A stretch of 64,000 nucleotides of DNA, from positions 5,766,001 through 5,830,000 of the forward strand of contig NZ_JAFBCM010000001.1 of NCBI RefSeq assembly GCF_016907715.1, given 5' to 3'. The number at the start of each line of letters is the position of its first letter. Position 1 is the first letter of the stretch. This DNA comes from Tenggerimyces flavus. Lineage in GTDB: Bacteria; Actinomycetota; Actinomycetes; Propionibacteriales; Actinopolymorphaceae. Shown piece after piece: positions 41,236-59,431 of this stretch. The notes beneath the pieces were generated by a model. That model was not told where the DNA came from, did no database searches, and saw only the letters and a list, made by a program, of their open reading frames with translations. The position numbers were made by a program, and so were the translations under genes.

Positions 41236-41265
41236 AACCCCGGGCGGCACCTGCCGCCCGGGGTT
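41236..41265. terminator. GC-rich hairpin at the chromosome/prophage boundary
   Basis: An exact 14-base stem (41236-41249 with 41252-41265, AACCCCGGGCGGCA arm). It can end transcription from the reductase gene on the left. On the minus strand it follows three bases after the RNase P RNA 3'-end-like sequence, exactly where an rnpB terminator belongs. Confidence 0.8.
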
Positions 41266-41268
41266 GAT

Positions 41269-41293
41269 GGACGAGCCGGCCTGTAAGCCGGAT
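41269..41293 (-). other. Candidate attachment site: fragment of the rnpB 3' end
   Basis: On the minus strand the bases ATCCGGCTTACAGGCCGGCT and CGTCC that follow match the 3'-terminal segment of actinobacterial RNase P RNA (form ACAGAAYCCGGCTTACAGGCCGGCTCGTC). Upstream of it the match stops abruptly and none of the catalytic core (for example GAGGAAAGTCC) is present. With the terminator beside it this is what remains when an element inserts into the 3' end of rnpB. The intact gene should then lie at the right end of the prophage. Confidence 0.6.
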
Positions 41294-41366
41294 ACAGCCC
41301 AACCGCTGGCGTCCGTAGCCCCCTGACCTGCAGAGGAGCAGTCCGGAGCGCGGGCACAACGTGGCC

Positions 41367-41388
41367 CTGTTCCGTTCCTGTTCCGTTC
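41367..41388. repeat. Tandem 11-base duplication before the cargo operon
   Basis: CTGTTCCGTTC occurs twice without spacer (41367-41377, 41378-41388), immediately before the GGGAGGGG ribosome site of the gene at 41404. It may be a regulator-binding direct repeat or a simple duplication. Confidence 0.6.
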
Positions 41389-41403: not shown

Positions 41404-41745
41404 ATGAGCACCACCGCCGCACGCGAAGTCGAGACCGTCTGGTGTGAGAACGCCGCCCACGACCTCGAGCACTTCATCCGAGACGACTGCGAGCACCCGC
41501 ACTTCACCGACCAGCAGACGCGCGCCCTGATGAACCGCGGCGCCCGGACCGCGCATGTCGCCGAGCTCGAAGACGTCGCGGCTCGTGCGATCGCCGCACA
41601 CCAGGCCGTGGCGGACGCTGCGGACCGCCTCGCCGAGCTGCAAGCCCGGCTACCCAACGCGTCCCACTACGACACCGCGGTACAAGCCCAGTACGTCCGC
41701 GAGGCGCTCGACCGCGCGATCGCCGCGTTCCGGGGCGACGCGTGA
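41404..41745 (+). CDS. Prophage protein of unknown function, first gene of the rightward operon
   Basis: A 113-residue mostly helical acidic protein. Residues ~14-40 contain Cys and His residues (WCENAAHDLEHFIRDDCEHP) that might bind a metal. The rest is an Ala-rich helix (AIAAHQAVADAADRLAELQA). GGGAGGGG is five bases before ATG 41404. Its stop overlaps the next start as GTGA, so it is translated with the beta-helix protein. Not recognised. Confidence 0.8.
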   Translation: MSTTAAREVETVWCENAAHDLEHFIRDDCEHPHFTDQQTRALMNRGARTAHVAELEDVAARAIAAHQAVADAADRLAELQARLPNASHYDTAVQAQYVREALDRAIAAFRGDA

Positions 41746-42908
41746 GCCTCTCGCGCCGCGGACTGCTGGCCACCCTGACCGGTGGTTCGCTCGTGGCTGC
41801 GGGTGCCCAGCTCGCCGGGGCGAAGGCGCAACCGCGCGCTGCACGAGCCGGCGTGACGGGGCTGGATGTGTCGTCGTACGGCGCCGTGGGCGACGGCGTG
41901 ACCGACGACACTGCGGCGATCCAGGCCGCGCTCGATGACGCGTCGGCCGGCACGTACCCGCGCCGGGTCAGCCTTCCGGCCGGCGTCTACCTCACGACCG
42001 CCACGCTAGTCGGATCCAGCTCGATCGAGCTGGCCGGGGAGGGCCCGGAGCGGACGGTCATCATCCCGCCGACGGCGACCACGGGTGTCCGGCTGGGCAG
42101 CCTGACGCAGAGCCAGCCGCACGGCCTGGTCGTGCGGGACTTCACGTTCCGTGGGGACGCCGCGAGCACCGCGTACCCGTTGCTGGACGTCCAGCAGTAC
42201 GGGCGGAAGTGGGTGGTCGAGCGCGTCCACTTCGACAACAACTTCGGTGACCGGCCCGGCATCCGCGTCTGGTCGAGCTGGGTCGGCACGATCCGCGACT
42301 GCAACTTCTGGCGGCTCGGCGTCGAGGGCGTGGCGTCCAACCGGGCTGCGATCATCGTCAAGCCGCAGGCGCTGCCGAACGGGAACGGCCCGATCAACAA
42401 CCTGGTCATCGACGGCTGCGCGTTCGAACGCGTCCAGACCGGGATCGACCTGCACGACCCGACCGAGTACGGCCAGTCGACCGCGATCTACAGCGTGGAG
42501 ATCCGTAACCCGCGGTTCAAGAACACCGCCACCGACGGGCACGTCGCGAACTCGGTCGGCATCCGCAGCAACAGCAACAACGTGTTCAACGTGGTCGTGA
42601 CGTCGCCCTTCTTCGAGGACTTCGCCGTGGGCATCAAGGCGCGCGGCTGGGGATGGGTCATCGACGCCCCGTTCGGCCAGTCCGCCGACAAGATCATTCA
42701 CCTGGTCTCCGGTGGCGGGCACTCGATCCGCGGGCTGATCATGCAGGGCGCGGAGAACAACGAGATCGCGACCGGCGTGCACTGCGGTGCGGGCATCGCA
42801 GGTGTCTGCAGGCTCGACCAGTGGAAGTCGGTCGGCGCGGCGGGCTACCTGACGACGGCCCCGTGGGTGGACGACACGGACGGCAAGCTCGTGGCGGTGG
42901 CGGCGTGA
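41742..42908 (+). CDS. Tat-exported pectate-lyase-superfamily (right-handed beta-helix) protein
   Basis: A 388-residue protein. Residues ~1-33 are a signal with twin arginines (SRRGLLATLTGGSLVAAGA) and an Ala-rich cleavage region. It then has the Pectate_lyase_3 start (LDVSSYGAVGDGVTDDTAAIQAALDDA) seen in phage tail spikes and polysaccharide-degrading enzymes, followed by beta-helix coils (NNLVIDGCAFERVQTGIDLH, SVEIRNPRFKNTATDGH). A virion spike needs no signal peptide. The signal and the orientation opposite to all tail genes suggest a lysogen-secreted surface or enzyme protein. GTG 41742 overlaps the previous stop. Activity is inferred from fold only. Confidence 0.85.
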   Translation: MSLSRRGLLATLTGGSLVAAGAQLAGAKAQPRAARAGVTGLDVSSYGAVGDGVTDDTAAIQAALDDASAGTYPRRVSLPAGVYLTTATLVGSSSIELAGEGPERTVIIPPTATTGVRLGSLTQSQPHGLVVRDFTFRGDAASTAYPLLDVQQYGRKWVVERVHFDNNFGDRPGIRVWSSWVGTIRDCNFWRLGVEGVASNRAAIIVKPQALPNGNGPINNLVIDGCAFERVQTGIDLHDPTEYGQSTAIYSVEIRNPRFKNTATDGHVANSVGIRSNSNNVFNVVVTSPFFEDFAVGIKARGWGWVIDAPFGQSADKIIHLVSGGGHSIRGLIMQGAENNEIATGVHCGAGIAGVCRLDQWKSVGAAGYLTTAPWVDDTDGKLVAVAA

Positions 42909-43075
42909 TCCTCGACCTGATCCTGAACCTGATCGACCGCGAGTCCCGGCACCGTGTGCGCGCCCGCCGCGCCGAGCGTCGCGAGGACCGCCGTCGCCGT
43001 CGCGAGTTGCGCCGCGAGCTCCGCCGCTGGATCCGAAGCAACCGCCCAACCTTAGACCGAGGAGACCCAAGATGA
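42905..43075 (+). CDS. Small arginine-rich protein with hydrophobic N-terminus
   Basis: A 56-residue protein: a short hydrophobic start (LDLILNLID) then an extreme Arg/Glu-rich helix (RVRARRAERREDRRRRRELR). GTG 42905 overlaps the beta-helix stop as GTGA, and its stop overlaps the next ATG as ATGA. It could sit at the membrane or bind nucleic acid. No family recognised. Confidence 0.75.
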   Translation: MILDLILNLIDRESRHRVRARRAERREDRRRRRELRRELRRWIRSNRPTLDRGDPR

Positions 43076-43221
43076 CCGCCACCGACCGCTTCGTCGAGCT
43101 GGTCGCCACCGTACCCTGGCCGATGGCACGCGTGCTCGCGCTCCTCGCGGTCGCCGTCGCCGTGGGCGCCATGGTGCTGGTGTGGAACTACACCAGGTCC
43201 GAGATTCGGAGCCAGTCATGA
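43072..43221 (+). CDS. Single-pass small membrane protein
   Basis: A 49-residue protein with one membrane segment (VLALLAVAVAVGAMVLVWNY) and a short charged tail (TRSEIRSQS). ATG 43072 and stop 43221 overlap both neighbours (ATGA on each side). Too short for standard gene calling, but the double coupling supports it. Holin-like size, but distant from the lysin. Confidence 0.75.
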   Translation: MTATDRFVELVATVPWPMARVLALLAVAVAVGAMVLVWNYTRSEIRSQS

Positions 43222-43685
43222 CGAGCAGGCATCTGGCGGTTTCGCCCGCGCGATGGCCACTGGCGTGGGATCCTACGGCCATGCGACACGCCGCCATTCC
43301 TGCCGCGCTCACCGTTGTCTCGGGGGTCGCGATCTTCGCGGGCTCCCTGTTGCCGTGGGCCACGATCGGTGAGTTCGGCGGCATGTCGGGCGTCGGCGGG
43401 TACGGGACGATCACGCTCGCCCTCGGCGCGGCCGTCGTGGCATGCGCGGTCGGTGTCTTCCTCGGATACCCCGTGCTCCGCTGGGTGGCCCTGGGATGCG
43501 CTGTACTCGCCGGCCTGGTGGCGCTCGTCACGCTGTTCCAGGTGGTGTCTGTCGCGCTCGCCGGCATCGGAGCGCCAGGCATCGGCCTGTTCGTCGTGAT
43601 CGGCGGTGCCATCCTCGGAACCGTCGGGGCGGCCACCGTCCGGACGAGCGCACCTAACCTCGGCCAGCACGGTACAGCTGGTTGA
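43218..43685 (+). CDS. Prophage membrane protein with about four helices
   Basis: A 155-residue integral membrane protein (hydrophobic segments near residues 24-45, 60-82, 88-112, 118-142; Gly/Ala rich). ATG 43218 overlaps the previous stop as ATGA. Last gene of the rightward chain. Its 3' end overlaps the HTH gene on the other strand by 32 bases. Not recognised; resembles many actinobacterial four-helix membrane proteins. Confidence 0.8.
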   Translation: MTSRHLAVSPARWPLAWDPTAMRHAAIPAALTVVSGVAIFAGSLLPWATIGEFGGMSGVGGYGTITLALGAAVVACAVGVFLGYPVLRWVALGCAVLAGLVALVTLFQVVSVALAGIGAPGIGLFVVIGGAILGTVGAATVRTSAPNLGQHGTAG

Positions 43686-43938
43686 CCCGTCGTCGGCTGA
43701 CGCCGAGCGCGACCGCGACCTCTTCCCGCGTGAGGTGGCCGGCGTCGATGATCGCCACGACCAGGCGCGCGCGGAAGTCGGTCGTGTCGAAGTAGGCCTC
43801 GCGCATACCCTCCGCGAGCGCGTGCGCCGCGAGGACGGCGGCCGCTCGGTCGCGGTCGTCGCCGATCTCGCGGACCGCGGCCTCGACTGCCTTACGAACA
43901 GCAGCGCGCGCTCGTGCGGCCGCCCCGGATGCGGTCAC
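43654..43938 (-). CDS. Small helix-turn-helix protein of the prophage
   Basis: A 94-residue protein with an Ala/Arg-rich helical N-terminal part (ARARAAVRKAVEAAVREIGD) and a C-terminal HTH (LTREEVAVALGVSRRRVNQL, residues ~70-89). It probably binds DNA. GTG 43938 has no ribosome site, so a leaderless start is possible. Two operator-like repeats lie in the gap to the divergent gene at 44133, suggesting autoregulation. Confidence 0.75.
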   Translation of the reverse strand: MTASGAAARARAAVRKAVEAAVREIGDDRDRAAAVLAAHALAEGMREAYFDTTDFRARLVVAIIDAGHLTREEVAVALGVSRRRVNQLYRAGRG

Positions 43939-44132: not shown

Positions 44133-44378
44133 ATGGACCACCCCCAGAAGTCTCGCGACCCGCTGGTCGAGCTCGTGGAGAAGCGTCTGGCGAACGGCGC
44201 TGACGCGCAGAAGATCGTGGTGGAGGTGCTGCGTTCGCTCGCCGAGCAGCTGCCGGTGCACTACGGCCCAGAGGCTCAGCCGACGTACCGCCGGTTCCTG
44301 CGTCGCCGCGCCGAGCTCGTCGAGGAGGGCGCGCCTTGGGTGAAGCCGTTCCTCGCCGAGTCCTGGCAGTGGCAATAG
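44133..44378 (+). CDS. Small prophage protein of unknown function
   Basis: An 81-residue, mostly helical protein (SRDPLVELVEKRLANGADAQ; KIVVEVLRSLAEQLPVHYGP) ending in FLAESWQWQ. AGGAAGG is four bases before ATG 44133. It stands alone on the plus strand and is followed by the terminator at 44448-44486. No family recognised. Confidence 0.75.
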   Translation: MDHPQKSRDPLVELVEKRLANGADAQKIVVEVLRSLAEQLPVHYGPEAQPTYRRFLRRRAELVEEGAPWVKPFLAESWQWQ

Positions 44379-44447
44379 GCGTCGTGCTCCGGTACCTCCC
44401 ATACCCGGCGCCCACCCCCTAACGCCGGTCGCTTCGCCGGAGCACGA

Positions 44448-44486
44448 CGAAAGACCCCCATCCCGCCTGGGGATGGGGGTCTTTCG
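44448..44486. terminator. Strong bidirectional terminator between phage transcripts
   Basis: An exact 17-base stem (44448-44464 with 44470-44486) with loop GCCTG and A-rich/T-rich stem ends (CGAAAGACCCCC). It stands between the gene at 44133 and the 3' end of the leftward lysis/structural transcript at 44555. Confidence 0.88.
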
Positions 44487-44554
44487 TGCCAGCCGACCTC
44501 CCGACGACAGCGCGTGGCGGCCAGCGTGGTCCGGCTGGTGACCGGACGCTTCAG

Positions 44555-44757: not shown

Positions 44758-45429
44758 CTAGGAAGGGGGGATGATCTCGTTGAGCCTCTTGTGGATGAGG
44801 TTCAGCGAGGCCGCCACCTGACCGAGCAGTTCACGCATCTCGGTCTGGTCGGCGGCGTCCTGAGCGTCGTCGCCCTTGTCGCGCTGCTTCTCGGCGTCGA
44901 GCTTCACGCCCGCGCCGACGATGTACTCGCCGAGGCTGACGCCCGCGACGCCGCCGTACGGCTTGGCGTCGAGGTCGGCAACAGCCTTGGCGATCTCCTG
45001 CACGGTGGGCATGTCGTCCTCCGGTGGCTGGTAGGTGTGCTCGGTCTTGAAGCTGAGGTGGACGTGGTCCACGTGCGGGTTGCTGCCGTCGTACTCGCGC
45101 CACGACCACGGCGGGTTCGACAGCGGCGAGGCGATCCGCTCGAACCAGATGACGTAAGTGAGGCCGAGCCGCTCGTGGTCGGCGAGGGCGCGTGCGGCAA
45201 TCCAGTCGCCGACGAACTTCCGCAGCGGGCCAGGGTCGTTGACGGTGCCGCCGTCGTGCACCGTGAGGTCGACGGCCAAGCCGACGGCATGGTCGCCAGT
45301 GCCGCGGCCGGGCGCTCCCCACCAGAACCAGACCTGCCACGGGCAGTCCGTCACCAGCTCATCTGCGGCCGAACGCGCCCACGGCTTCACCGAGCCGAGG
45401 CTCGTCTTCACCAGGTCGATGCTGCCCAT
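44758..45429 (-). CDS. Endolysin, M15-like peptidase (ARB_07466/VldE-like) domain
   Basis: A 223-residue protein. Residues ~20-145 form a zinc-peptidase-like cell-wall domain with GDHAVGLAVDLTVHDGG and NPHVDHVHLSF (the His/Asp and HxxH zinc pattern). A linker and C-terminal helical part (AKAVADLDAKPYGGVAGVSL ... LGQVAASLNLIHKRLNEI) probably binds wall or multimerises. ATG 45429 has GGAGG six bases upstream and shares one base with the previous stop (TGATG). The longer frame to 45657 is a shadow. Probably cleaves peptidoglycan cross-links at lysis. Confidence 0.85.
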   Translation of the reverse strand: MGSIDLVKTSLGSVKPWARSAADELVTDCPWQVWFWWGAPGRGTGDHAVGLAVDLTVHDGGTVNDPGPLRKFVGDWIAARALADHERLGLTYVIWFERIASPLSNPPWSWREYDGSNPHVDHVHLSFKTEHTYQPPEDDMPTVQEIAKAVADLDAKPYGGVAGVSLGEYIVGAGVKLDAEKQRDKGDDAQDAADQTEMRELLGQVAASLNLIHKRLNEIIPPS

Positions 45430-45638
45430 CACGGACCTCCAACTAGGGAGATGAGGGAGATGCCGCCGGATCCGACGGCGACCGCCGACGCGCCAACGGC
45501 GATCCAGCGGAGCGCGTTGAGCGAAGCGACCGCCTTCTCGAGTGCGACGAGGCGCGCGTCGTGCTGGCCGATGACGATGTCGAGCTTCGTCTCTACCCTC
45601 ACCAGCCGGTCTCGCATCTCGGCGTCCACATCGGGCAT
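45429..45638 (-). CDS. Small membrane protein, second holin-like/XhlA-like
   Basis: A 69-residue protein with an N-terminal coiled-coil helix (DRLVRVETKLDIVIGQHDAR, LVALEKAVASLNALRW) and a C-terminal membrane segment (IAVGASAVAVGSGGISLISL), the XhlA-type layout. GAGGAGAGGAAG lies before ATG 45638. It is directly upstream of the lysin, so it is probably a lysis accessory protein. Confidence 0.75.
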   Translation of the reverse strand: MPDVDAEMRDRLVRVETKLDIVIGQHDARLVALEKAVASLNALRWIAVGASAVAVGSGGISLISLVGGP

Positions 45639-45653
45639 AGGGACTTCCTCTCC

Positions 45654-46193
45654 TCACATTCCGATGACGACGATCATGCGTTCGCCGAACGTGCCAGTGT
45701 TGGCGGTGACCCGGTACTTCATGCGGAACGTGTTTGAGCCGGCAGTGAGCCCGGTCTCTAGGTACATCGTCGAAGCGCGGATGGCGCCGCCCGTGCTGGA
45801 TGCGGTGATGAACACGGCCCGCGGGTCGTCGGCGGCGATCGTGGTGGCACCCGACACGTTGTAGGAGGCGTAGGAGTTCTGCCCGACGGTGTCGTTCTTG
45901 ATGATGGACGTCACCGTCACGATCGCCTGGGTGCCGGTGGTGACCGTAACGTCCGGCCCCTGTGTGGCGAGGTCGGTGTACGTGGTGCTGGTGGTGGTCT
46001 GGTTGGTGGCGACGATCCCCCGAAAGACGGAGCGCCGGACCACCTGGTTGACGCCGCTGGTGACGATGAAGCCGGACGTGGCCACGTCCGCCTTGGCTGG
46101 CGCCGTCTCGTTCAGGTCGCCGGACAGAATGTTCTGTTGCGCCGCGGTCAGGACATTGTTAGCCGTGAAGGTCGGCGGTGTCGCCCAAGCCAT
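45654..46193 (-). CDS. Phage minor structural protein (collar-fibre/tail-tip type)
   Basis: A 179-residue beta-rich protein whose N-terminus (MAWATPPTFTANNVLTAAQQ, NILSGDLNET) is a motif found in many actinophage virion proteins. The remainder has Thr/Val-rich strands (TGTQAIVTVTSII, GSNTFRMKYRVT). Translational TGATG junction with the previous gene. Probably a tail-tip or host-contact component. Confidence 0.75.
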   Translation of the reverse strand: MAWATPPTFTANNVLTAAQQNILSGDLNETAPAKADVATSGFIVTSGVNQVVRRSVFRGIVATNQTTTSTTYTDLATQGPDVTVTTGTQAIVTVTSIIKNDTVGQNSYASYNVSGATTIAADDPRAVFITASSTGGAIRASTMYLETGLTAGSNTFRMKYRVTANTGTFGERMIVVIGM

Positions 46194-46657: not shown

Positions 46658-49600
46658 TCAGTGCCCCAGCCTGTTCGTGTCCAGTACGCCGTTCGTGGTC
46701 GAGTCGAGGACGAACACCTCTGACGGCTCGTCGAGCGGTTCGGGAGGGATCAACTCGCACGCCAGCTCCACCTCGTGCTGCAAGCCGACCTGGTGGATGG
46801 TGTGCTGGATCTGCTCGACGAAGAAGTGCCCGTCGACAGCGGACTCGGTGTCCAGGATCCGCACCTTGTCCGACAGGTCGCGTTGAATCGCCGGGTAGAA
46901 CCGTTCCGGCTGTGTCGTCGGCGACGCCAGCACTCGGACGGTCACGGTGGGAAGGCGTTGCTTGCGCTGGTTGATCACGAGCTGGCCGATCGCCTCGGCG
47001 TCGTACTGGTTGACGAACGGAGCATCCCGGTCGTACTTGCGGGGGCCGTGCTCGTCGCGCGACGTGACGTCTTCGAGCTCCACCTTGACGGTCCGCGCCA
47101 CCGGCACCGACCGAGCCCGCAGCCGCAGCCCCGATACGACCGCGTCGGCGCCACCGCCGGTGTTCGACAGGATGATCTCGATCGACTGCCCGGACGTGCG
47201 CGTCAACGAGCCATTGACGGTGACGCCGTTGAGCACCTCGAAGTCGGTGCCGGACACTGGCGCTACCGCACTATCCACAGGGTCGTCCATGACAGCGGTG
47301 AAGACGCGCTGCTGGCTACCGCCAGACGGGACGGTGAACGTCTCCTCGGTCTCCCACACCACGCCGACACCGCCCAATGGGCGTCGCTCCTCGACGTCGA
47401 ACGCCACCTGGTTGACGACCTCGCCGAACCCGGCGTTGTAGCCGAACGGTGCGGAGTGCTTCGGCTCCGACGCGCCGGTGATCGCGGCCGGCGGATGGAC
47501 TGTCCACAGCCGGCCGGCGCCGTCAGTGAACGCCGTAGTTCCGGCGACGTGTGCCGCGAAGAACGGCGACGCCACCGCGGTCCCGTTGATGCCTGCGCGG
47601 ATCTCCGCGTAGTGCACGTTGCCGATGAACAGCTCGGTGTTGTCACCGCGCGCACCGACCTCGACAGGTGTGGTGCTGGCGAAGATCGACGTGACGCCGG
47701 CCTGCACGACCTGCGTACCGAGCGTCACCCAGTTGACGCCGTTCTCGCTTGTGTAGAAGGTGATCGTCCGGCCGCTCGCGCCGTTGTTCACGTCGAGCGC
47801 CGCACGCACCCAGTGCAGCGAGCCGTCAGCGAAGCCGGTCGGGCGGGTCGCCTGCGCCGACAGAACGGCCGTTCCGTCCGCCGACCACAGAATCTGCATG
47901 CGACCGTCGAAGTTGGACAGCCGGAACTCGTAGGAGAACTGTCCGCCGCCGGCCGCCTTGCCGACGAACGCCTGGTTCGCGGCCGGTGTCCAGTCGTCGG
48001 CGGCGACCCGCACCCGGATATCAAGGTCGGCCACGATGTCGAGCGCGGCGTTGTCCGGGGTCGAGGCGCGGCTGTTGGCGTTGCCGGTGACGCGCAGTCC
48101 GTCGGAACCGTCAACGTCGCGGAACGTCGTCTGTGACGCGATCGATGCCGCGTCGAGCAGCCGGTGGTGCCGGTCGCGGAACACCAGCCGCCCGACTGAG
48201 TCGACGGTGACGAGTGCGGGCGGCCCCTCGGCGTTGACCAATCGTTCGAGCGCGGCGTACGCGTCGGTGCCCTCTTCCCACCACCAGGGCAGGATGCTGG
48301 CACCGGCGTCGATGTCGCGCTTGTTGGCGTCCCAGCCGATGGCGTCGAGCACCTTGTGCACGGCGTCGCCGGTGCGCAGCCCGGAGAACAGCGCGGTCGA
48401 CACGTCCGCCTCGCGCAGCTTCGCCAGTGGGTCGAGCGCGCCGAGCGTCACCGAGCGGTTGTTGATGTCCGGGTTGAGCTCGAAGTCCTCGAGGTGGCCA
48501 CGGAACAGGACGGTCCCGATGATCGACGCCGAACCGTGGGCGGTGGTGCGCCAGAACGCGCCCGTCGAGGCGCCGTCGAAGTAGGTGCCGAGGATGGCGC
48601 CCTCCTCGACCATGACGCCGTCGATGTTCCACGAGTCGTTCAGCGCCGCGTCACTGGTGGAGTAGGCGATCGTCACCTGAGCCTTGGCGGCATCCGCCGG
48701 TGCGGTGTCAGTCTTCGACCGGCGGACGTAACCAGCAGTGTCCGCCTGTGACGTGAACACGGTGCTCGGGTTGAGCGTGATGCTGCCGTTCGCCCGAAGG
48801 AAGATCATCTTGAGGCCGGCGGTTCGCGTGCCCACGGTGTTGAGCCGCAGGTACGCGGAGACGGTGTACGCCTTGCCCGGCTTGACGGGGAACTGCAGGG
48901 TGTCGACGGTCGGCGTGCCGGCGATGTTGTTGACCACCGACTGGCAGGCCTGCCCGCCGACGAACGGGTTGTTCGCCGTCGCGGTCAGCGTCGTCCGAGT
49001 CGACGACCAACCCGTCGTGTTCAGCTCGAACGACGGGTTCGGGACCAGGTTCATCCGGTCGTTGTACGACACCCACAGCGGCCGGCCCGGCTTCACATTC
49101 CCGGCGATCGGCGACAGCGCGTTGTCCGGCGTGTAGTCGCGGGATGTGTTCAACAGCTCGAGTCCGGACATTCGGCCCGACGTCGTCGGCGTCAGCGACC
49201 GTGCCTGGTCCCGGCCGTACACCATCTGCGGCACCGCACGCTGGCCGAGCTCCCGGTCGGTGACGTCGTCGCCGGGATCCTCGAAGTAGCCGTCGTTGTC
49301 CCAGTCGATGCGGAAGTCGTAGCGGCCGACCGGTGCCACCCAAGGGCCGGGGAACGTGCCGTCGTCGTTGACGAGGATCGAGTCCATCGCGAACGTCGGC
49401 ACCGTCGGCGAGCTTGTGGTCGGTCCGGGCTTGATGACGCCGACGGGACCGAACGCGCCGGCACGGGTCATCGTCTCGGTCGGGTTGACGTCGTCGCCGA
49501 GGAAGATCCGAACCTCGGCGTTCGTCGCACTGATCGACCATTCGAGCCGGTACCGTGTGCCGGCGACGAACGTGATCGTGGACTCCGCACCGACCTGCGC

Positions 49601-49960
49601 GTTGGCGTTGTCCCGGATCCGCAGCCGGCCTGGCCCGCTGGAGTCGATGCGCCAGCCGAACCCACCCAGGGTGGGCGCCGCGAGCATGACCGTCCACGAC
49701 AGCGACGCCACGCCTGGGTGGGTCACCTCGACGCGGCCACCGCAGATGCCCGTCGCGATGTCCGAGCCGAGGATCCACTCCCCGTTCGCGGGCTCGCCTG
49801 CCTGCTGCTGGATCGACATGTACGAACCGTGCGGGCCATCCTCCGCGACGAGCACGTTACCGAGAACGTTGTCGAACGGGGTATCGCCCGGACCGCCCGT
49901 GCCTGGGCCCATCGGCCCGGACCCGACACCGGTCAGGTCCATCCGGAGGATGTCGCTCAT
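46658..49960 (-). CDS. Large minor tail protein with carbohydrate-binding-type domains
   Basis: An 1100-residue virion protein. Near the N-terminus lies a concanavalin-like domain (residues ~45-200). Then comes a conserved phage tail part (YDFRIDWDNDGYFEDPGDDV, ~215-330), a CBM-like jelly roll (NLVPNPSFELNTTGWSSTRT, ~315-480), a baseplate-hub-like region (~490-640) and a second LamG-type module (SYEFRLSNFDGRMQIL, ~650-800). The C-terminal part ends with VFVLDSTTNGVLDTNRLG. The domains fit host-surface binding at the tail tip. Four-base overlap with the tape measure gene. Confidence 0.82.
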   Translation of the reverse strand: MSDILRMDLTGVGSGPMGPGTGGPGDTPFDNVLGNVLVAEDGPHGSYMSIQQQAGEPANGEWILGSDIATGICGGRVEVTHPGVASLSWTVMLAAPTLGGFGWRIDSSGPGRLRIRDNANAQVGAESTITFVAGTRYRLEWSISATNAEVRIFLGDDVNPTETMTRAGAFGPVGVIKPGPTTSSPTVPTFAMDSILVNDDGTFPGPWVAPVGRYDFRIDWDNDGYFEDPGDDVTDRELGQRAVPQMVYGRDQARSLTPTTSGRMSGLELLNTSRDYTPDNALSPIAGNVKPGRPLWVSYNDRMNLVPNPSFELNTTGWSSTRTTLTATANNPFVGGQACQSVVNNIAGTPTVDTLQFPVKPGKAYTVSAYLRLNTVGTRTAGLKMIFLRANGSITLNPSTVFTSQADTAGYVRRSKTDTAPADAAKAQVTIAYSTSDAALNDSWNIDGVMVEEGAILGTYFDGASTGAFWRTTAHGSASIIGTVLFRGHLEDFELNPDINNRSVTLGALDPLAKLREADVSTALFSGLRTGDAVHKVLDAIGWDANKRDIDAGASILPWWWEEGTDAYAALERLVNAEGPPALVTVDSVGRLVFRDRHHRLLDAASIASQTTFRDVDGSDGLRVTGNANSRASTPDNAALDIVADLDIRVRVAADDWTPAANQAFVGKAAGGGQFSYEFRLSNFDGRMQILWSADGTAVLSAQATRPTGFADGSLHWVRAALDVNNGASGRTITFYTSENGVNWVTLGTQVVQAGVTSIFASTTPVEVGARGDNTELFIGNVHYAEIRAGINGTAVASPFFAAHVAGTTAFTDGAGRLWTVHPPAAITGASEPKHSAPFGYNAGFGEVVNQVAFDVEERRPLGGVGVVWETEETFTVPSGGSQQRVFTAVMDDPVDSAVAPVSGTDFEVLNGVTVNGSLTRTSGQSIEIILSNTGGGADAVVSGLRLRARSVPVARTVKVELEDVTSRDEHGPRKYDRDAPFVNQYDAEAIGQLVINQRKQRLPTVTVRVLASPTTQPERFYPAIQRDLSDKVRILDTESAVDGHFFVEQIQHTIHQVGLQHEVELACELIPPEPLDEPSEVFVLDSTTNGVLDTNRLGH

Positions 49961-51588
49961 GCGAGCCTGCCCTGCTTGCGCAGGCTGTTAAGCGCCGCAG
50001 TGAGCCAGTTCAGCAGCTCGATCTTCGAGCCGATGACGCCGTGGTTCGCAAGCTGCACGATGACCGGAGCGGGTTGGACCGGTGCGGCCATCGCCATGCC
50101 CTGCCCACCGAGACGCAGCCGTCCACCGTTCGGCACGATGAGGCCGTCCTGATCGGGGACGAACGTCTCAGGTCCACGCTCACCAACGGTGTAGGCGACC
50201 CCGGCGTCGACCGGGCCACCGTGAGCGCGGGCACGGTCAATGATCCGCTTGTTCGCGCCCGAGATCGACACGCCTACCGTGATGTTGACGCGCTCGTCGG
50301 GGATGCTGTTCAGCTGCCGCTTGGCCGAGCGGACCTGCGCGGTCAGTTGGGCGATGTTGGCCTTGATCGCCGCGCGTCGGTCCTTCGTTAGGCTCTTGTC
50401 GTTCAGCTGCTTCTTCGCGGATGCGAGCTTCTGTTCCAGGTCGGAGATCTTCGCCTTGAGCTCGACCTTGTCCTTCATGTTGCGGACGGCGCTGTTCCAG
50501 CGTGCGATGTCGTTCGACGCGCCCTCCAGCGTTACGGCGACGTCCTGCCCGAACGACTCGACCGAGCCAGCCGCTTCGAACAGCTTCCCGGCGAGACCCT
50601 TCTTCCCCATCGCGAACGCGAGCATTCCGGCCTGCGTCAACGCGCCCGCGGTGAAGCTGGTCAGTCCGCGTGCCATCCTGGCCACCGACGCCAAAGCGTC
50701 ACCGGCGAAGGCGAGGAACGACTCGGCCATGCCGAGCGCGGCCGCCGCGACCTGGAACTTACCCGGGCCGGACAGCCAGGCGACGAACTTCTCCAGCGCC
50801 GGCAGCACCTTCTTCTGTGCGATGTCTGCCAGTGAGACCAGTGCCGGGGTCGCGGTGACGAGCAGGGTGTCGCCCATCTCCTTGAGTCGCGCCTTCGACT
50901 CGGTGACCTTCCGAGCCAGTGAGCCGGCGCCTTGGGCGTAGGCGTTCTGCGCATCGGTCGACTTCTGCATGACCAGGTCAAGGGTGGCCTGCGCGGAAGC
51001 CTGCTCCTCGGTGGCGAACGTAAGACCCTTCTTCTTGTTCGCCAGTATCTGCGCGTCAACCTGCGCTTGACTGATGCCGATGCCCAACCCCTGAAGGGCG
51101 TCACGCTCACCGAGCAGTGCCGCCTGCAGGATCTCCGACACCTCGGCCGTAGTGCGGGTACCGCCGGACCACTCCGACAGCGCGCCGGACAGATTCTGAA
51201 TCTGCAGCGTCATGTCGGTAGCCGTCTTGCGGGTGAAGCCCATCGGCACCAGGAGGTCGGCCATACCGGCCGCGAGGCCGACGGCCTCTCTCTTCGTCAA
51301 CCCCATGGCGTGGGCGTTGGCCTCGGCCCAGTCTTTCACTCGACCGATCTGGTCGCCGAAGACGATCTTCGACTTGTTCTCCATCAGCTGGATCTTCGCG
51401 GCCGCGTCGAGCAGCTGCGGGCCGAGCGCCACCACGCCCACGCCGACAGCTGCGAGGCCGAGTGCGCCCGCTTTACCGACAGAGGCCAGCCCTTTGCCGA
51501 GACCGGACGCGGCCTTGCCGATGCCGTGGAACGTCTTCGACGCGGCGTCCTTGGCGAGGATGGTGAAGGAGAGCGTGCCGTCAGCCAC
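49957..51588 (-). CDS. Tail tape measure protein
   Basis: A 543-residue protein, directly after the tail chaperones: Gly/Ala-rich hydrophobic stretch near residues 25-60, a TMP central domain (FTRKTATDMTLQIQNLSGAL; LLGERDALQGLGIGISQAQV), a hydrophobic middle, and a coiled coil (DLEQKLASAKKQLNDKS ~375-425). At the end is the common RAHGGPVDAGVAYTVGERGP motif. It sets tail length; 543 residues is short for actino-siphoviruses and predicts a short tail of roughly 80 nm. GTG 51588 lies within the chaperone extension frame. Confidence 0.92.
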   Translation of the reverse strand: MADGTLSFTILAKDAASKTFHGIGKAASGLGKGLASVGKAGALGLAAVGVGVVALGPQLLDAAAKIQLMENKSKIVFGDQIGRVKDWAEANAHAMGLTKREAVGLAAGMADLLVPMGFTRKTATDMTLQIQNLSGALSEWSGGTRTTAEVSEILQAALLGERDALQGLGIGISQAQVDAQILANKKKGLTFATEEQASAQATLDLVMQKSTDAQNAYAQGAGSLARKVTESKARLKEMGDTLLVTATPALVSLADIAQKKVLPALEKFVAWLSGPGKFQVAAAALGMAESFLAFAGDALASVARMARGLTSFTAGALTQAGMLAFAMGKKGLAGKLFEAAGSVESFGQDVAVTLEGASNDIARWNSAVRNMKDKVELKAKISDLEQKLASAKKQLNDKSLTKDRRAAIKANIAQLTAQVRSAKRQLNSIPDERVNITVGVSISGANKRIIDRARAHGGPVDAGVAYTVGERGPETFVPDQDGLIVPNGGRLRLGGQGMAMAAPVQPAPVIVQLANHGVIGSKIELLNWLTAALNSLRKQGRLA

Positions 51589-54216: not shown

Positions 54217-54822
54217 TCAGGCCACCAGCGGAGCGTTGCGCCGGTACGGGATCAGCTTCTCCGCGGCGGCCGGATTCTGCCGAACCCGCACGACACCCCA
54301 GTCGCCATAGCCCGCAACACCGAACGGGGTGTCCTTCAGCTTGAACACATCCACCGCGAGGATCAGGCAGGCTTCCTTCACCGCCGCCGGTACCGCGTTC
54401 CAGCCCCACTGTGCCGTCACCTGAAGCGTTGCCCGCGCGGCGCACGTGAATGCCTGGGAATCGACAGCCCGGATGATCCAGTACGGCCAGCCTTCCTCGC
54501 CGTGCCGCATCTGGTTCAACGGCTCGAGCTGGTAGTCCGCCGCTGCCCACGTGGTACCGAAGGTTCCGTCGTCGCCCGTCGCGATGACGAGTCCCGTCGT
54601 GGTGTGGAAGTCGTGGACGAACGCCAGCCCGGCGCGGGTAGGCCGGAATACCCGCGCCGTAGCCGACGTGGTCTTGTTGAACTGGCGGCGACAGAACGCG
54701 TCGATACCACGCGACGCCGTCGCGAGCGCGTTGTTCAGCGCCGCATCGTCGTCGGTGTCAGCGATCCCACCGAGCCGAGTCTTCAGCTCGGCCAGGATCG
54801 CGTACGGGTCGCCGATCGCCAT
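54217..54822 (-). CDS. Head-tail connector protein (gp6-like)
   Basis: A 201-residue helical protein (YAILAELKTRLGGIADTDDD; ASRGIDAFCRRQFNKTT; AVKEACLILAVDVFKLKDTP) of the HK97 gp6-like DNA-packaging/adaptor family that joins portal and tail. Last start ATG 54822. Sits three to four bases after the preceding gene. Confidence 0.85.
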   Translation of the reverse strand: MAIGDPYAILAELKTRLGGIADTDDDAALNNALATASRGIDAFCRRQFNKTTSATARVFRPTRAGLAFVHDFHTTTGLVIATGDDGTFGTTWAAADYQLEPLNQMRHGEEGWPYWIIRAVDSQAFTCAARATLQVTAQWGWNAVPAAVKEACLILAVDVFKLKDTPFGVAGYGDWGVVRVRQNPAAAEKLIPYRRNAPLVA

Positions 54823-55698: not shown

Positions 55699-56955
55699 CT
55701 AGATGCCAGTGACCGTGCAGAACGCGGCCGGCCGGTACACGGGCAGCGCGACCCGCATGTCGGCGCGCATCGCCTGCTTGCCCTCGATGAAGAACGAGCC
55801 GTGGCTGTTCGACACCTGCACGTCGATGCCGCGACGGACGGCGAGCTCGATGAAGTTCGCGAAGTCGCCGACGAGGCCGGTGTTCTCCGTGATCGCGTCG
55901 GACTCGACCACGTTCAGGCCCCAGATCCGCAAAGGGCCAGCGTCCGAAGGGTTGCCCCAGATGTAGATGCCGTCAGCGGTGCGCAGCAGCCGGATGTCCT
56001 GCCAGTCGTTCGGGTGCATGACGACCGCGTTCGGCAACGCGCGCCCGGTCACCCGGACCTTGACGATCCCCTTGTACACCGCGTCAGGCGTCGTGTCGGT
56101 GCCCTTCGCCTGGGTCTGGATGCCCGCGACGTTCAGGACGCCGGTCAGCTGCGGCGCGACGCCGCTGCCAACAAGGATCTGCGAGTCGAGCCGCTGCCGG
56201 ATCATGAACGGCAAACGGTTGTCGACGTAGCCGCGGGCCTGCGGCACGTCCTCGAGCTGCTCGTCGGTGACAGGCAGGAACACTGCGATCTTCCGAACGA
56301 TGGACGAACGCTCGGTCAACGCGAGCGCGGCCTCCGGGTAGGTGCCCGCCGCGGCCGTCGTCGACTCCGCCACCTCCGCCGCGGCGTTGGTGAAGGTCGT
56401 CTCCTCCATGTACTGCACAGCAGCCTGAGAAGTGGTCGTCTGCGGGACCAGGTCGGTGATCTGGATCGGGCGAGTCGCGAAATCCACGACGCGACCGGTG
56501 CGGATCTCCTCCGGGTCCCAACCGATCGTCGCGCCGTAGAGGCCGGTCTGGAACAGCGTCTTCAGCTCGATGTCCAGAGTCGCCTCGGGACCGTTCGCGC
56601 CGGACTTGTCCTTGAACGCCTTCGACTCCACGAACAGCTGGCCGAGCGACTTCGTCTGACGCTGGCCGTTCGGCCGCGAGCCTGGCTCGCTGCCGGACTC
56701 GCTGCGGGTGTCGGGCGCGGTGCGCGCACGCTCCGCGGCCTTCTGTACCGCCTGCAGGTCGGCGACCTCCGACGCAATGTCGGCCATCTCGTCGTTCAGC
56801 TTGCGGACGTGTGCGGAGATCTCGCGCGAGGTGCCCGTGACCGACTTCACCTTCGTGAAGTCCAGGTCCTCACCGGCCTCAGTGAAGATAGCGCCGAGCT
56901 CGTCTTGCTTGGCCTTGAGCTTGCCCTCGGCTTCCTTCAAAGCGGGAAACGTCAT
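55699..56955 (-). CDS. Major capsid protein, HK97 family
   Basis: A 418-residue capsid protein. Residues ~1-100 are a charged helical delta (scaffolding) domain (EISAHVRKLNDEMADIASEV), which the protease removes. The HK97 fold follows (KSLGQLFVESKAFKD; QYMEETTFTNAAAEVAESTT; IAVFLPVTDEQLEDVP; GSGVAPQLTGVLNVAG; ALPNAVVMHPNDWQDIRLLR; NFIELAVRRGIDVQVSNSHG). ATG 56955 overlaps the protease stop as ATGA. Confidence 0.95.
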   Translation of the reverse strand: MTFPALKEAEGKLKAKQDELGAIFTEAGEDLDFTKVKSVTGTSREISAHVRKLNDEMADIASEVADLQAVQKAAERARTAPDTRSESGSEPGSRPNGQRQTKSLGQLFVESKAFKDKSGANGPEATLDIELKTLFQTGLYGATIGWDPEEIRTGRVVDFATRPIQITDLVPQTTTSQAAVQYMEETTFTNAAAEVAESTTAAAGTYPEAALALTERSSIVRKIAVFLPVTDEQLEDVPQARGYVDNRLPFMIRQRLDSQILVGSGVAPQLTGVLNVAGIQTQAKGTDTTPDAVYKGIVKVRVTGRALPNAVVMHPNDWQDIRLLRTADGIYIWGNPSDAGPLRIWGLNVVESDAITENTGLVGDFANFIELAVRRGIDVQVSNSHGSFFIEGKQAMRADMRVALPVYRPAAFCTVTGI

Positions 56956-58034
56956 GATGCTCTCCTGAGCTGGGACTGGACGAACCGCACGTACTCACGC
57001 GCGAGTTCCTCATCGGGGGTGTCCAGCAGGGACTTCAAGCGCTGCAGTTCGTCGCCGAGCCATTCGAAGAGGTCAGCGGAACCTGCAGACAGAGGAGTCC
57101 TGCCCTTGGCGGAGCGGAGAGCTATGACTTCCGTCGCCCGATCAATGAACGCGGAGACGTCGGCTATGACCGAGATCCCCTCGTCGTTGAACTTCATGGT
57201 AGATGTCGGAGCGGCCAACAGCTCCGGAGGCTCGCTGTCGTTGTCGCGGAGGTGGCCGGCCAGGTGTTCGTACACCGCCTGCCGGTCCTCGGCCGGGATA
57301 CCGGCGCCCTTGACGCTGTTGAGCTGCGCGATACCGAGCAGGCAGGCCCGGACGTTGGCCGGACCGACCGCGTTCTCGTGGTGCGGGAACCGGTAGGACG
57401 CCTTCTGCTCCGGGTCACCGTCCACCCATGCGTACACGTGCCGCAGTCCGCCGACCGCGGCGCTCTCGTGGACTTCGACACCGTGCCACGCCTTCGCGGC
57501 GACCGGGGTCTCGTGCGGGCGGATGGCGCGCTTGTACGCCGACATGGTCGTCTCCTGCTGCCGTTGCTGGCCTTGGGCGGACTTCGCCGCCAGAGTTCGG
57601 GTGTTCACGCCGGCACCGATCAGCACCGGCGACACCTCGGTCACGTTGAGCTGCTTCAGGAACTGGACATCGGTGCCGCCGAACTTGCCCGGCGCGGCGT
57701 CGAGGATGTCGTAGCCGTACGACCACTCCTGTCGAGCGCCCACATTCTTGATCACGTTGAACGTGTTCCGGCCGTCGTCGGTGTCGAGGAAGAACTTGCC
57801 GTCGAGGATCGCCTCGGAATCGGTCTGCCGGATGATCCCCTTGCCGACTGGCAGCGCACCTTCCCAGACCTTGTGTCCGTACGCCGAGATCAGTACCTCT
57901 TGCCCGTCGGTGAACGCGCCGGGGATGGTGACGTCGCCGTCCTTGTCGACCACGTTAAACGTGGAGAAGACGGCCGTTACCTCACCCTTGCTGGCGTTCT
58001 TGATCTCGAACTGGCCAAGGTGCTTGATGCTCAT
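56952..58034 (-). CDS. HK97-family prohead protease with C-terminal extension
   Basis: A 360-residue protein. Residues ~1-165 are the U35-type prohead protease (GEVTAVFSTFNVVDKDGDVT; catalytic-type His in SAYGHKVW; Ser in EWSYGYDI; LNVTEVSPVLIGAG). Residues ~185-265 form a second domain (RACLLGIAQLNSVKGAGIPA, EDRQAVYEHLAGHLRDND) seen in other actinophage proteases. It is longer than the ~200-residue minimal enzyme. The C-terminal helix may be scaffold-like. It cuts the capsid delta domain. Confidence 0.92.
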   Translation of the reverse strand: MSIKHLGQFEIKNASKGEVTAVFSTFNVVDKDGDVTIPGAFTDGQEVLISAYGHKVWEGALPVGKGIIRQTDSEAILDGKFFLDTDDGRNTFNVIKNVGARQEWSYGYDILDAAPGKFGGTDVQFLKQLNVTEVSPVLIGAGVNTRTLAAKSAQGQQRQQETTMSAYKRAIRPHETPVAAKAWHGVEVHESAAVGGLRHVYAWVDGDPEQKASYRFPHHENAVGPANVRACLLGIAQLNSVKGAGIPAEDRQAVYEHLAGHLRDNDSEPPELLAAPTSTMKFNDEGISVIADVSAFIDRATEVIALRSAKGRTPLSAGSADLFEWLGDELQRLKSLLDTPDEELAREYVRFVQSQLRRAS

Positions 58035-59431
58035 GCGGTTTCCTCCTCGGCCGGCGGTTCGGCTGGGGTCGCGGGTGTCGCGGTTCCGGGTGGCTGCAGC
58101 TGGACAGAGAACAAGCCGGAATGCTTGAGGCGTGTCCAGTCGCCAGTGGTCACGGCTTCGACGACCGAGTCGGCCAGGTATCCGGCGTCGAGAAGGGTCC
58201 GGATCGATCGGGACTCCAAGCCCTGGATGTTGGCGGAGTCGGCGGCGTCCTCACGGAGGAACGCCACGCCGCGCAGATCCGGGACGAGCTGGGTAGCGGA
58301 CGACGGTGGAGTCAGAAGCGTCTGCAGGCTGGCCGCGGCCACGTCCCACAGGGGGCGCATCGTCTTGTCGGCCACGAGTCGGCGCGCGGCGCCGAAGTTG
58401 CCTTGGTTCAGGCTCGACCCCTGCAGGCCCTCGGTCATGCCGACGATCACGGGGTGCATGCCGAGCGCCATCGCGATGCGGGATTCGCCGGCACCCTGGG
58501 TCTGTTTGAAGTCCAGCTGCCGCAGATCCGCCGTCACTGTGGTGACGTCGGCGCCACCCATCAGGAACAGCGTCTTGTACGCGTTCGCCGCGCCCTGGTG
58601 CGAGGCGTTGAACTTCTCGACGAACTCGTCGAAGCCATCCTCGTCGATGTCCTTCATGCCGATGATCGTCGACAGCTGCGCGCCGTTGGAGAAGAACCGC
58701 TCCTTGTGCAGCGTCGAAGCCTTGTCGGCCTGGATCTCGCGCAGGATCGGCGTCAGTGGGGACATGCCGCGGAACCTCGCGGCCGGGTCCGGTGTCGGCG
58801 AGTAGTGACACACCTCGGTCGGCAGCAACGTCACCGGCTCAGGGCGGGACACGCTCGTGCTGCGCGGCCAGTACTCGTAGGCGATGATCTTCGCGTCCGG
58901 TGCCCACAGGTCGTCTGACGCCGTGCCGATGACGATCGTCACCCAGTCCGGCCGCAGATACACGATCCGTCGGCCCGGACCCGTTGCGGCGCGCCCCAGC
59001 CGGCCAGCGTCGTCAGCGGTGGTCGCGTAGTAGTTCCCAGCCAGACACGCCGTGACATCCATCCGGGACAGCAGTTCGCCCGTCGTCTGCCCGGGCGCCG
59101 GCTGCTGGATCAGCGCCAGCTCGGCATTCGTGAACAGGTCGCCGCCACGGCCGTTCGTGAACGTCTGCCACGCGAACTTGGTCTGACTGAAGATGGCCTG
59201 ACGCGCCGCGATCGTCGAGAACACGATGCCGCTGCCCTTGTAGGCAGCACCGATGTACGCCTCGAAGTCGTTCTCGATCTGCTCCTTATCGCCCGTCAGC
59301 GAGAACGCCTGCAGGAACGGGAGCCGCGCCGCATCCGTCTGCCAGAACGGCGGCTCAGACCACGCCTTACGTGTGGCCGTCCGGACCGACGGCCCACGTG
59401 CTGCCGCGATCTTGTCGAGCAGGCTGGCCAT
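58031..59431 (-). CDS. Portal protein, HK97 family
   Basis: A 466-residue portal (AAYKGSGIVFSTIAARQAIF; VTACLAGNYYATTADDAGRL; RGMSPLTPILREIQADKAST; FFSNGAQLSTIIGMKDIDED; MALGMHPVIVGMTEGLQGSS; NQGNFGAARRLVADKTMRPL). Twelve copies form the DNA entry channel at a capsid vertex. Its ATG 59431 overlaps the stop of the small membrane protein gene (TGATG), and its stop overlaps the protease start. Confidence 0.94.
   Translation of the reverse strand: MASLLDKIAAARGPSVRTATRKAWSEPPFWQTDAARLPFLQAFSLTGDKEQIENDFEAYIGAAYKGSGIVFSTIAARQAIFSQTKFAWQTFTNGRGGDLFTNAELALIQQPAPGQTTGELLSRMDVTACLAGNYYATTADDAGRLGRAATGPGRRIVYLRPDWVTIVIGTASDDLWAPDAKIIAYEYWPRSTSVSRPEPVTLLPTEVCHYSPTPDPAARFRGMSPLTPILREIQADKASTLHKERFFSNGAQLSTIIGMKDIDEDGFDEFVEKFNASHQGAANAYKTLFLMGGADVTTVTADLRQLDFKQTQGAGESRIAMALGMHPVIVGMTEGLQGSSLNQGNFGAARRLVADKTMRPLWDVAAASLQTLLTPPSSATQLVPDLRGVAFLREDAADSANIQGLESRSIRTLLDAGYLADSVVEAVTTGDWTRLKHSGLFSVQLQPPGTATPATPAEPPAEEETA

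Follow-up and report, generated by a model that had tools for sequence, protein, structure and literature searches.

The window analysed here is a 64,000-nucleotide stretch of Tenggerimyces flavus DNA, bases 5766001-5830000 of a single-contig 8.52-Mb genome (G000), and it contains a set of five overlapping open reading frames (ORFs 1-5, Table 1) at one end of a prophage. ORF 2 encodes a right-handed beta-helix protein with a twin-arginine translocation (Tat)-type signal. We favor, with a probability of about 0.42, a reading in which ORF 2 is exported through Tat and binds or cleaves a polysaccharide of the lysogen, lowering the adsorption of phages that need this polymer. On this view a temperate actinobacteriophage, inserted into the rnpB 3' end, carries the five genes as cargo on its lysogeny side, and ORF 2 would work outside the lysogen on its surface or matrix polysaccharide. 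Superinfection exclusion through removal or masking of a receptor would be the likeliest benefit, and the small membrane proteins of the set may hold the ORF 2 product or aid it at the membrane. Judged from its sequence, the main product of the set, ORF 2, resembles a viral tail-region protein provided with an export signal, and its site of action is therefore probably the exterior of the host cell. Support comes from the position of the set, from the signal of ORF 2, from its fold and from the recurrence of surface-type enzymes with signal peptides at the tail-lysis junction of related phages.

The five-gene set lies at the prophage end opposite the integrase

Both ends of the prophage are marked by an exact 26-bp direct repeat. 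The copy in the window is identical to L004:15821-15846 (G000 5845821-5845846; L004 is a further stretch of the same genome), which forms the 3' end of a complete rnpB (RF00010, 292.5 bits, L004:15821-16208, minus strand). RF00010 has one match in the genome, so no second rnpB was detected besides the one that the far copy terminates. Among three related genomes, rnpB ends with an identical core in two and with 25 of the 26 bases in the third. About 90 bp separate the far copy from the end of the integrase gene (phrog_1, E 2.4e-45, L004:14271-15731). Because of the repeat, the rnpB 3' end, the nearby integrase and the conservation of the core in relatives, we place the prophage at G000 5807268-5845846 (38.6 kb). 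ORF 1 starts 110 bp inward of the attachment (att) core, and the five-gene set occupies the prophage end opposite the integrase, a position that supports the favored reading. Once the phage DNA is circular, ORF 1 would be preceded by the integrase gene in the same orientation. By its position the set resembles moron-like cargo, lying within the prophage, outside the late operon and near att, and its place beside the attachment site bears out the original prediction of prophage cargo apart from the late genes.

Other placements were considered. The att repeat and the rnpB match rule out a position of the set outside the prophage, and a tRNA serving as attachment site was found neither in the window nor in L004. 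Comparison with empty sites added nothing beyond the core sequence, because the genomes used for it (e.g., G005) do not have the RibD-like gene, which here adjoins the prophage, next to rnpB; around rnpB, the exoribonuclease side alone matched, in two of three related genomes. IMG/VR lists the same prophage as IMGVR_UViG_2893660585_000001 (L188), with a predicted boundary that falls within the five-gene set: the record opens with the initial base of ORF 5. Searches with ORF 1 and the beta-helix protein gave no match within this record.

As originally described, the five genes run against the virion genes and are chained by overlaps of 4 bp, four in a row, with the sequences GTGA, GTGA, ATGA and ATGA. 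The term operon is based on these overlaps, since a search for sigma-70-like promoters, the one type sought, gave none, against 0.1 expected by chance. Codon usage favors the annotated frame for ORFs 1, 2, 4 and 5, narrowly so for ORF 4 (0.33 vs 0.27 bits per codon). The Arg-rich peptide of the original prediction is present as ORF 3, but codon usage lends it no independent coding support (-0.04 vs 0.07 for an antisense frame). The single-pass and four-helix membrane proteins are matched by hydrophobic 19-residue windows, one in ORF 4 and four in ORF 5; the single-sequence AlphaFold model of ORF 5 is poor, with a predicted local distance difference test score (pLDDT) of 58.

Relatives of the smaller ORFs are scarce. 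In 196 genomes, ORF 1 retrieved itself and one weak 42-residue match, and it had no match in the viral contigs or in 50,697 phage records. ORF 5 retrieved itself and weak partial matches in 8 genomes, the same prophage among the viral contigs, and nothing among the phage records. When ORFs 3 and 4 were compared with the collected loci, Pfam, PHROGs and PADLOC, ORF 4 returned its own copies and ORF 3 weak Arg-rich matches that we attribute to composition. None of the five ORFs matched PADLOC up to E 0.1, and no relative of the whole set was found in the genome, viral-contig, phage and PADLOC searches run, in agreement with the earlier statement that no described system of this composition was recognized. 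Because ORFs 1 and 5 have no worthwhile relative and ORFs 3 and 4 were compared within the collected loci, no co-occurrence evidence ties the five genes together beyond their overlaps.

ORF 2 combines a Tat-type signal with a right-handed beta-helix

The N-terminus of ORF 2, MSLSRRGLLATLTGGSLVAAGAQLAGAKA, carries an RR motif, an uncharged hydrophobic stretch and an A-x-A-type site, the features of our Tat criterion, which is a home-made rule set and not a trained predictor. The same features are found at 27 of the 2287 start codons in the window that are followed by 60 stop-free codons, ORF 2 included, and several of these 27 are probably genuine signals. In lists of remoter beta-helix relatives, limited to the best 80 each, none of 80 viral proteins compared with 14 of 79 genome proteins have them. 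The signal, set against these frequencies, argues for action outside the cell.

The pectate-lyase fold named in the original prediction together with the twin-arginine signal is confirmed by a match to the pectate-lyase-like family PF12708 (E 1e-17, 65.1 bits vs a cut-off of 27). The AlphaFold model of ORF 2 has a pLDDT of 71.8 and a predicted template modeling score of 0.76, with pLDDT below 50 at residues 1-34, 262-269, 335-344 and 361-388. Its nearest structures are ORF18 of Geobacillus virus E2 (GVE2; VIA Z 33.1, 3.0 A over 320), the adhesin PfbA (VIA Z 32.1), alginate epimerases (VIA Z 29.8-30.7) and the tailspikes and depolymerases of Sf6, HK620, K5A and Klebsiella phages (VIA Z 26.6-28.7). 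In the model, therefore, the fold appears closest to beta-helices that act on polysaccharides or bind surfaces, which supports the proposed function. The domain begins at about residue 38, directly after the signal, and the model contains no N-terminal virion-anchor domain. PHROGs of tail spikes match the N-terminal part of ORF 2.

A further beta-helix-like ORF lies in the early region of the prophage (L004:10045-11214, G000 5840045-5841214, minus strand); its match to PF12708, scored from an inner start at 11046, is below the cut-off (E 0.0018).

Relatives of ORF 2 in host genomes and in one tail operon

Over its full length, the ORF 2 family has a narrow distribution in the genomes sampled. 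A second copy, 68-69% identical, is present in the same genome (L003); it is leaderless and starts with AAGGGGGACATAGTG. Beside it lies a flavin adenine dinucleotide (FAD)-oxidoreductase-like gene with a Tat-type signal, as read from the sequence (L003:10936-12747). Relatives with 58-60% identity occur in four of seven other genomes of the same bacterial family (Actinopolymorphaceae), where they have a Tat-like N-terminus, LSRRGFIGLGAGATAALL, with no A-x-A site visible by eye. These copies are chromosomal and have methyltransferase-like genes on both sides in three genomes and on one side in L171, with cytochrome bd-like genes nearby (both neighbor names read from sequence). Further relatives were absent from 293 genomes of the order (the family included, 285 outside it; E 1e-10), from 394 genomes of the class (E 1e-20) and, with a C-terminal profile, from 396 genomes of the phylum (E 1e-5), samples that overlap and in which only the best candidates per genome were scored; without the bacterial family itself, the class and phylum samples comprise 393 and 395 genomes. 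ORF 2 had no match in the 50,697 phage records at E 1e-3, and the paralogue from the same genome, used as query, had none in 72,556 plasmids at E 1e-5.

The sole close viral relative found is encoded on L187 (IMGVR_UViG_3300046715_000047). This protein of 348 aa is leaderless, 69% identical over the domain and likewise without a virion-anchor domain. Its gene shares 4 bp with a minor tail gene (phrog_7565) whose product is 37% identical to the minor tail protein of the window, and the gene order is tape-measure gene, a relative of the window tail protein, minor tail gene and beta-helix gene, followed by a collagen-like fiber, an endolysin and a holin. In the alignment, the GTGACCGGCCTCGACGTA start of the L187 protein (MTGLDV) falls on an in-frame GTG at 41853, GTGACGGGGCTGGATGTG, directly past the signal region of ORF 2; the two forms thus differ by an N-terminal signal joined at this point. 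This tail-module relative also supports the favored reading. A 1466-aa ORF just past the L187 lysis genes (L187:13498-17898) encodes a putative conjugative relaxase-like protein, and the L187 contig may be a phage-plasmid or the neighbor of a conjugative element.

In the tree, the window copy, the own-genome paralogue, the L187 protein and the related-genome group are unresolved and the outgroup branches are long, so that gain of the signal is not distinguishable from its loss, nor can a direction of gene transfer be read.

The chromosomal relatives bring up the strongest alternative, a captured host gene: ORF 2 would be a secreted polysaccharide-acting enzyme of the family that serves polymer use or the matrix of the host and not phage exclusion. 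This we hold to be somewhat unlikely. It agrees with the relatives in the own and the four related genomes, with the Tat-like N-terminus of the latter, with their methyltransferase-like and cytochrome bd-like surroundings and with the failure to find matches outside the family in the sampled genomes. However, the L187 protein, the sole close relative found among viruses, has no leader and is encoded with tail genes, the own-genome paralogue is leaderless too, and the tree does not separate donor from recipient.

Surface-type proteins with predicted signal peptides occur repeatedly between tail and lysis genes in related phages

Minor tail proteins were used to collect related phages, and the place examined in them was the one that the L187 relative occupies, between the minor tail gene and the endolysin gene (the tail-lysis junction). 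The best 80 of 127 matches represent 79 loci, one of which is this prophage; L187 is not among them. From the 78 other loci, 11 with less than 1500 bp downstream were dropped, and 56 of the remaining 67 have an ORF of at least 150 aa at the junction. In four of the 67 the junction protein carries a signal peptide (L215, L240, L252 and L253). Two such examples had first been met by chance, namely L191, on the contig of L215, and L196, on that of L253. The L215 protein is a GDSL esterase (PF13472) that also matches the tail-protein family phrog_15881 (E 3e-10), and the L253 protein is a PIG-L deacetylase (PF02585) with a Tat signal. That of L240 has a general secretory (Sec) signal and no Pfam match; that of L252 has a Tat signal, no Pfam match and similarity to phrog_5207 (unknown function, E 2e-10) and to the minor tail family phrog_6614 (E 3e-4). 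The tail-family matches of L252 and L215 are weak or partial. Leaderless proteins at the same junction include a BNR sialidase-like protein (L213), a PIG-L protein (L266) and beta-helix proteins (L208, L187). Leaderless BNR sialidase-like proteins directly 3' of the minor tail gene were also noted in L209-L211, L213, L214, L221, L228 and L242 (domain match from L213).

The 78 loci contain 518 plus-strand ORFs of at least 150 aa whose composition is coding-like, and among these the Tat features occur in 3 of 63 junction ORFs vs 1 of 455 elsewhere (Fisher p 0.006 in a small test, made post hoc after the first examples and with the home-made criterion); the single positive outside the junction comes from a minor tail gene whose start was set too far upstream. 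With the deacetylase of L253 as query, 11 viral loci were retrieved (L280-L290, L280 being the contig of L253). With starts chosen among the in-frame ones, five of these proteins have Tat and three Sec-type signals, two are leaderless, and L283 lacks the A-x-A site only, so that 9 of the 11 carry a Tat- or Sec-type signal when L283 is counted. According to gene lists with names read from sequence, several of the PIG-L genes sit between tail-type and endolysin-type genes; the match to a minor tail gene was made for L280 alone, and the L281 gene is antisense to its listed neighbors. The recurrence of surface-type enzymes with signals at this junction supports the favored reading. Near the tail-lysis junction of L193, an antisense gene (L193:9066-10202, minus strand) has a lipoprotein-like or Sec-like start, and its product matches a phage receptor-binding propeller weakly, below the cut-off (E 0.003).

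These loci are relevant to a second alternative, in which ORF 2 is a late enzyme exported before or at lysis that strips receptors so that progeny are not trapped. Viral neuraminidases free progeny by receptor stripping in this way. The deacetylases and the esterase with signals at or near the junction, mostly co-oriented with their neighbors, and the leaderless sialidase-like proteins at the same place speak for such an enzyme. Yet ORF 2 lies on the strand opposite to the late genes, past the lysis cassette and a strong hairpin, and we regard a late role as unlikely.

A third alternative makes ORF 2 a virion protein, a tail spike or tail-associated depolymerase whose signal is misread or whose translation starts at the internal GTG 41853. 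The tail-spike PHROGs, the tail-operon location of the L187 relative, the alignment of its start with this GTG, and the tail-family matches of the signal-like-start proteins of L252 and L215 are consistent with it. Against it stand the missing N-terminal anchor, the separate strand and operon and the rarity by chance of a Tat-type signal (27/2287), and we think it improbable. The original prediction had argued that a signal peptide makes no sense for a tail spike. This argument is half right: ORF 2 is not encoded in the tail module, but its domain is of the tail-module type, as the L187 relative (69%, in a tail operon) shows that the family is not foreign to such modules. It is weakened further by the Tat- and Sec-signal proteins at the junction of related phages, two of them with the tail-family matches described above.

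Weighing of the favored reading and comparison with known systems

Several observations weigh against exported ORF 2 acting in exclusion. No phage genes were recognized near the chromosomal relatives, which fits a plain host enzyme equally well, and the own-genome paralogue may already supply the same activity. A search of solved sequences with the C-terminal 240 residues of ORF 2 gave no match up to E 10, and confidence in the model is low at its C-terminal end. The catalytic residues of AlgE are Tyr149/Asp152/His154 of the YGFDPH motif; in one low-identity alignment, gapped beside the motif, these positions fall on ORF 2 Pro172/Arg175/Trp177. At this position of the alignment ORF 2 does not show the AlgE motif, and no catalytic residues were recognized in it. 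A GIDLHD sequence at 234-239, kept in 6 aligned rows up to 238-239, resembles AlgE GFDPHE. The promoter result and the small, post hoc junction test belong on the same side of the balance. Superinfection exclusion and polymer use, both suggested originally, remain at the level of inference.

ORF 2 shares its fold (Z 26.6-33.1) with beta-helix tail spikes and their kin (Sf6, HK620, GVE2 ORF18, phi29 gp12), and its L187 relative stands in a tail operon; unlike them, ORF 2 has a Tat-type signal, lacks a virion anchor and lies outside the late operon. A gene within the virion module, as expected of a tail spike, is found for the L187 relative and not for ORF 2. Secreted or surface PF12708-type proteins (AlgE epimerases, polygalacturonases, PfbA) also share the fold, and the export signal is as in many of the bacterial relatives; AlgE differs, in the low-identity alignment, at the three positions given above. 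Ltp of Streptococcus thermophilus phage TP-J34 is reported to be a surface-exposed superinfection-exclusion lipoprotein encoded by a prophage (PMC3952083). Like Ltp, ORF 2 is prophage-encoded and would be located outside the membrane, but Ltp is a lipoprotein and ORF 2 a Tat-type beta-helix protein.

In the parts of the published accounts compared, Butters and Sbash carry a soluble and a four-pass membrane protein for lysogenic defense in the region between lysis and immunity-integration genes (PMC7542560, PMC6426596), and the Butters paper tells of comparable lysogenically expressed defense genes in CarolAnn. The present set is alike in its location near lysis and integration genes and in pairing a soluble protein with ORF 5, predicted from its hydrophobic windows to be four-pass; unlike it, the systems in these accounts have no exported beta-helix protein. 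A Rex-like abortive-infection pair of ORF 1 and ORF 5, with the beta-helix protein as passenger, has these precedents in its favor and is nevertheless very improbable here, as ORF 1 and ORF 5 are not adjacent and neither has a DUF4747-like region (Pfam up to E 1) or a PADLOC match.

Surroundings of the set

The virion genes and the further features of the region are listed in Table 1. TGTTCCG repeats resembling CCTGTTCCGTT are present near the other prophage end (L004:15682-15725), and such repeats close to both ends may be integrase arm sites. Matches to the RNA families COG2908, mir-2058 and P15 in the region are far under the cut-off and were taken as chance; the mir-2058 alignment (22.4 bits vs 90) nevertheless reveals a real hairpin. 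The interval that separates the five-gene set from the lysis genes contains, besides the small helix-turn-helix-like protein of Table 1, an 81-aa ORF with no PHROG match (44133-44378, plus strand).

Table 1 Features of the prophage end and virion region in the window
Feature	Position	Strand	Remark
Perfect 14-bp inverted repeat	41236..41265	+	Between host RibD-like gene and prophage end; possible terminator lacking a T run (putative function)
att core, 26 bp	41268..41293		Identical to the rnpB 3' end
Tandem CCTGTTCCGTT repeats	41366..41387		Possible integrase arm sites (putative function)
ORF 1, 113 aa	41404..41745	+	No hydrophobic segment; no family match above cut-off
ORF 2, right-handed beta-helix protein, 388 aa	41742..42908	+	Tat-type signal at about residues 1-29
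ORF 3, Arg-rich peptide, 56 aa	42905..43075	+	ORF call; codon usage not favoring the frame
ORF 4, 49 aa	43072..43221	+	One hydrophobic segment
ORF 5, 155 aa	43218..43685	+	Four hydrophobic segments
Small helix-turn-helix-like protein	43654..43938	-	Convergent with ORF 5, 32-bp overlap; matches below Pfam cut-offs
Long hairpin 3' of lysis genes	44435..44497	-	Complementary stem in RNA-family alignment; perhaps the end of the late transcript
Terminator-like site	44461-44478	+	Within the hairpin region
Endolysin	44758-45657	-	
Minor tail protein	45654-46193	-	
Tail protein	46658-49960	-	
Tape-measure-like	49957-51588	-	
Head-tail adaptor	54217-54822	-	
Major head protein	55699-56955	-	
Protease	56952-58034	-	
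Portal	58031-59431	-	
Terminase	59658-61118	-	

Implications

A broader reading, which we put forward as doubtful, is that the tail-lysis junction of some actinobacteriophages holds a bank of surface-polymer enzymes that are toggled between a leaderless tail form and a Tat- or Sec-exported form. The leaderless form would be made with the tail, for use by the virion or for release alongside it, and the exported form would act on the infected or lysogenic cell itself. In this prophage the switch would be visible at the codon, the signal being joined to the beta-helix at the point where the leaderless relative from the tail operon starts. The lysogeny-side ORF 2 would remove or mask the receptor recognized by its tail form. 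A limited literature search returned no published description of a class of surface enzymes with signal peptides at this junction, and an abstract-level survey of signal-peptide tail spikes, phage Tat substrates, depolymerase-based exclusion and rnpB attachment sites returned no description of the present arrangement; no literature joining Actinopolymorpha and prophage was found. The findings point to a recurrent class of surface enzymes with Tat- or Sec-type signals (PIG-L deacetylases and a GDSL esterase), encoded in actinobacteriophages where tail and lysis genes meet or close to that place. If the favored explanation is true, a temperate phage can turn a tail-type polymer-recognizing domain into an exported agent by the addition of a signal peptide, or the reverse, and the gene pool of the tail module would be linked to superinfection exclusion.

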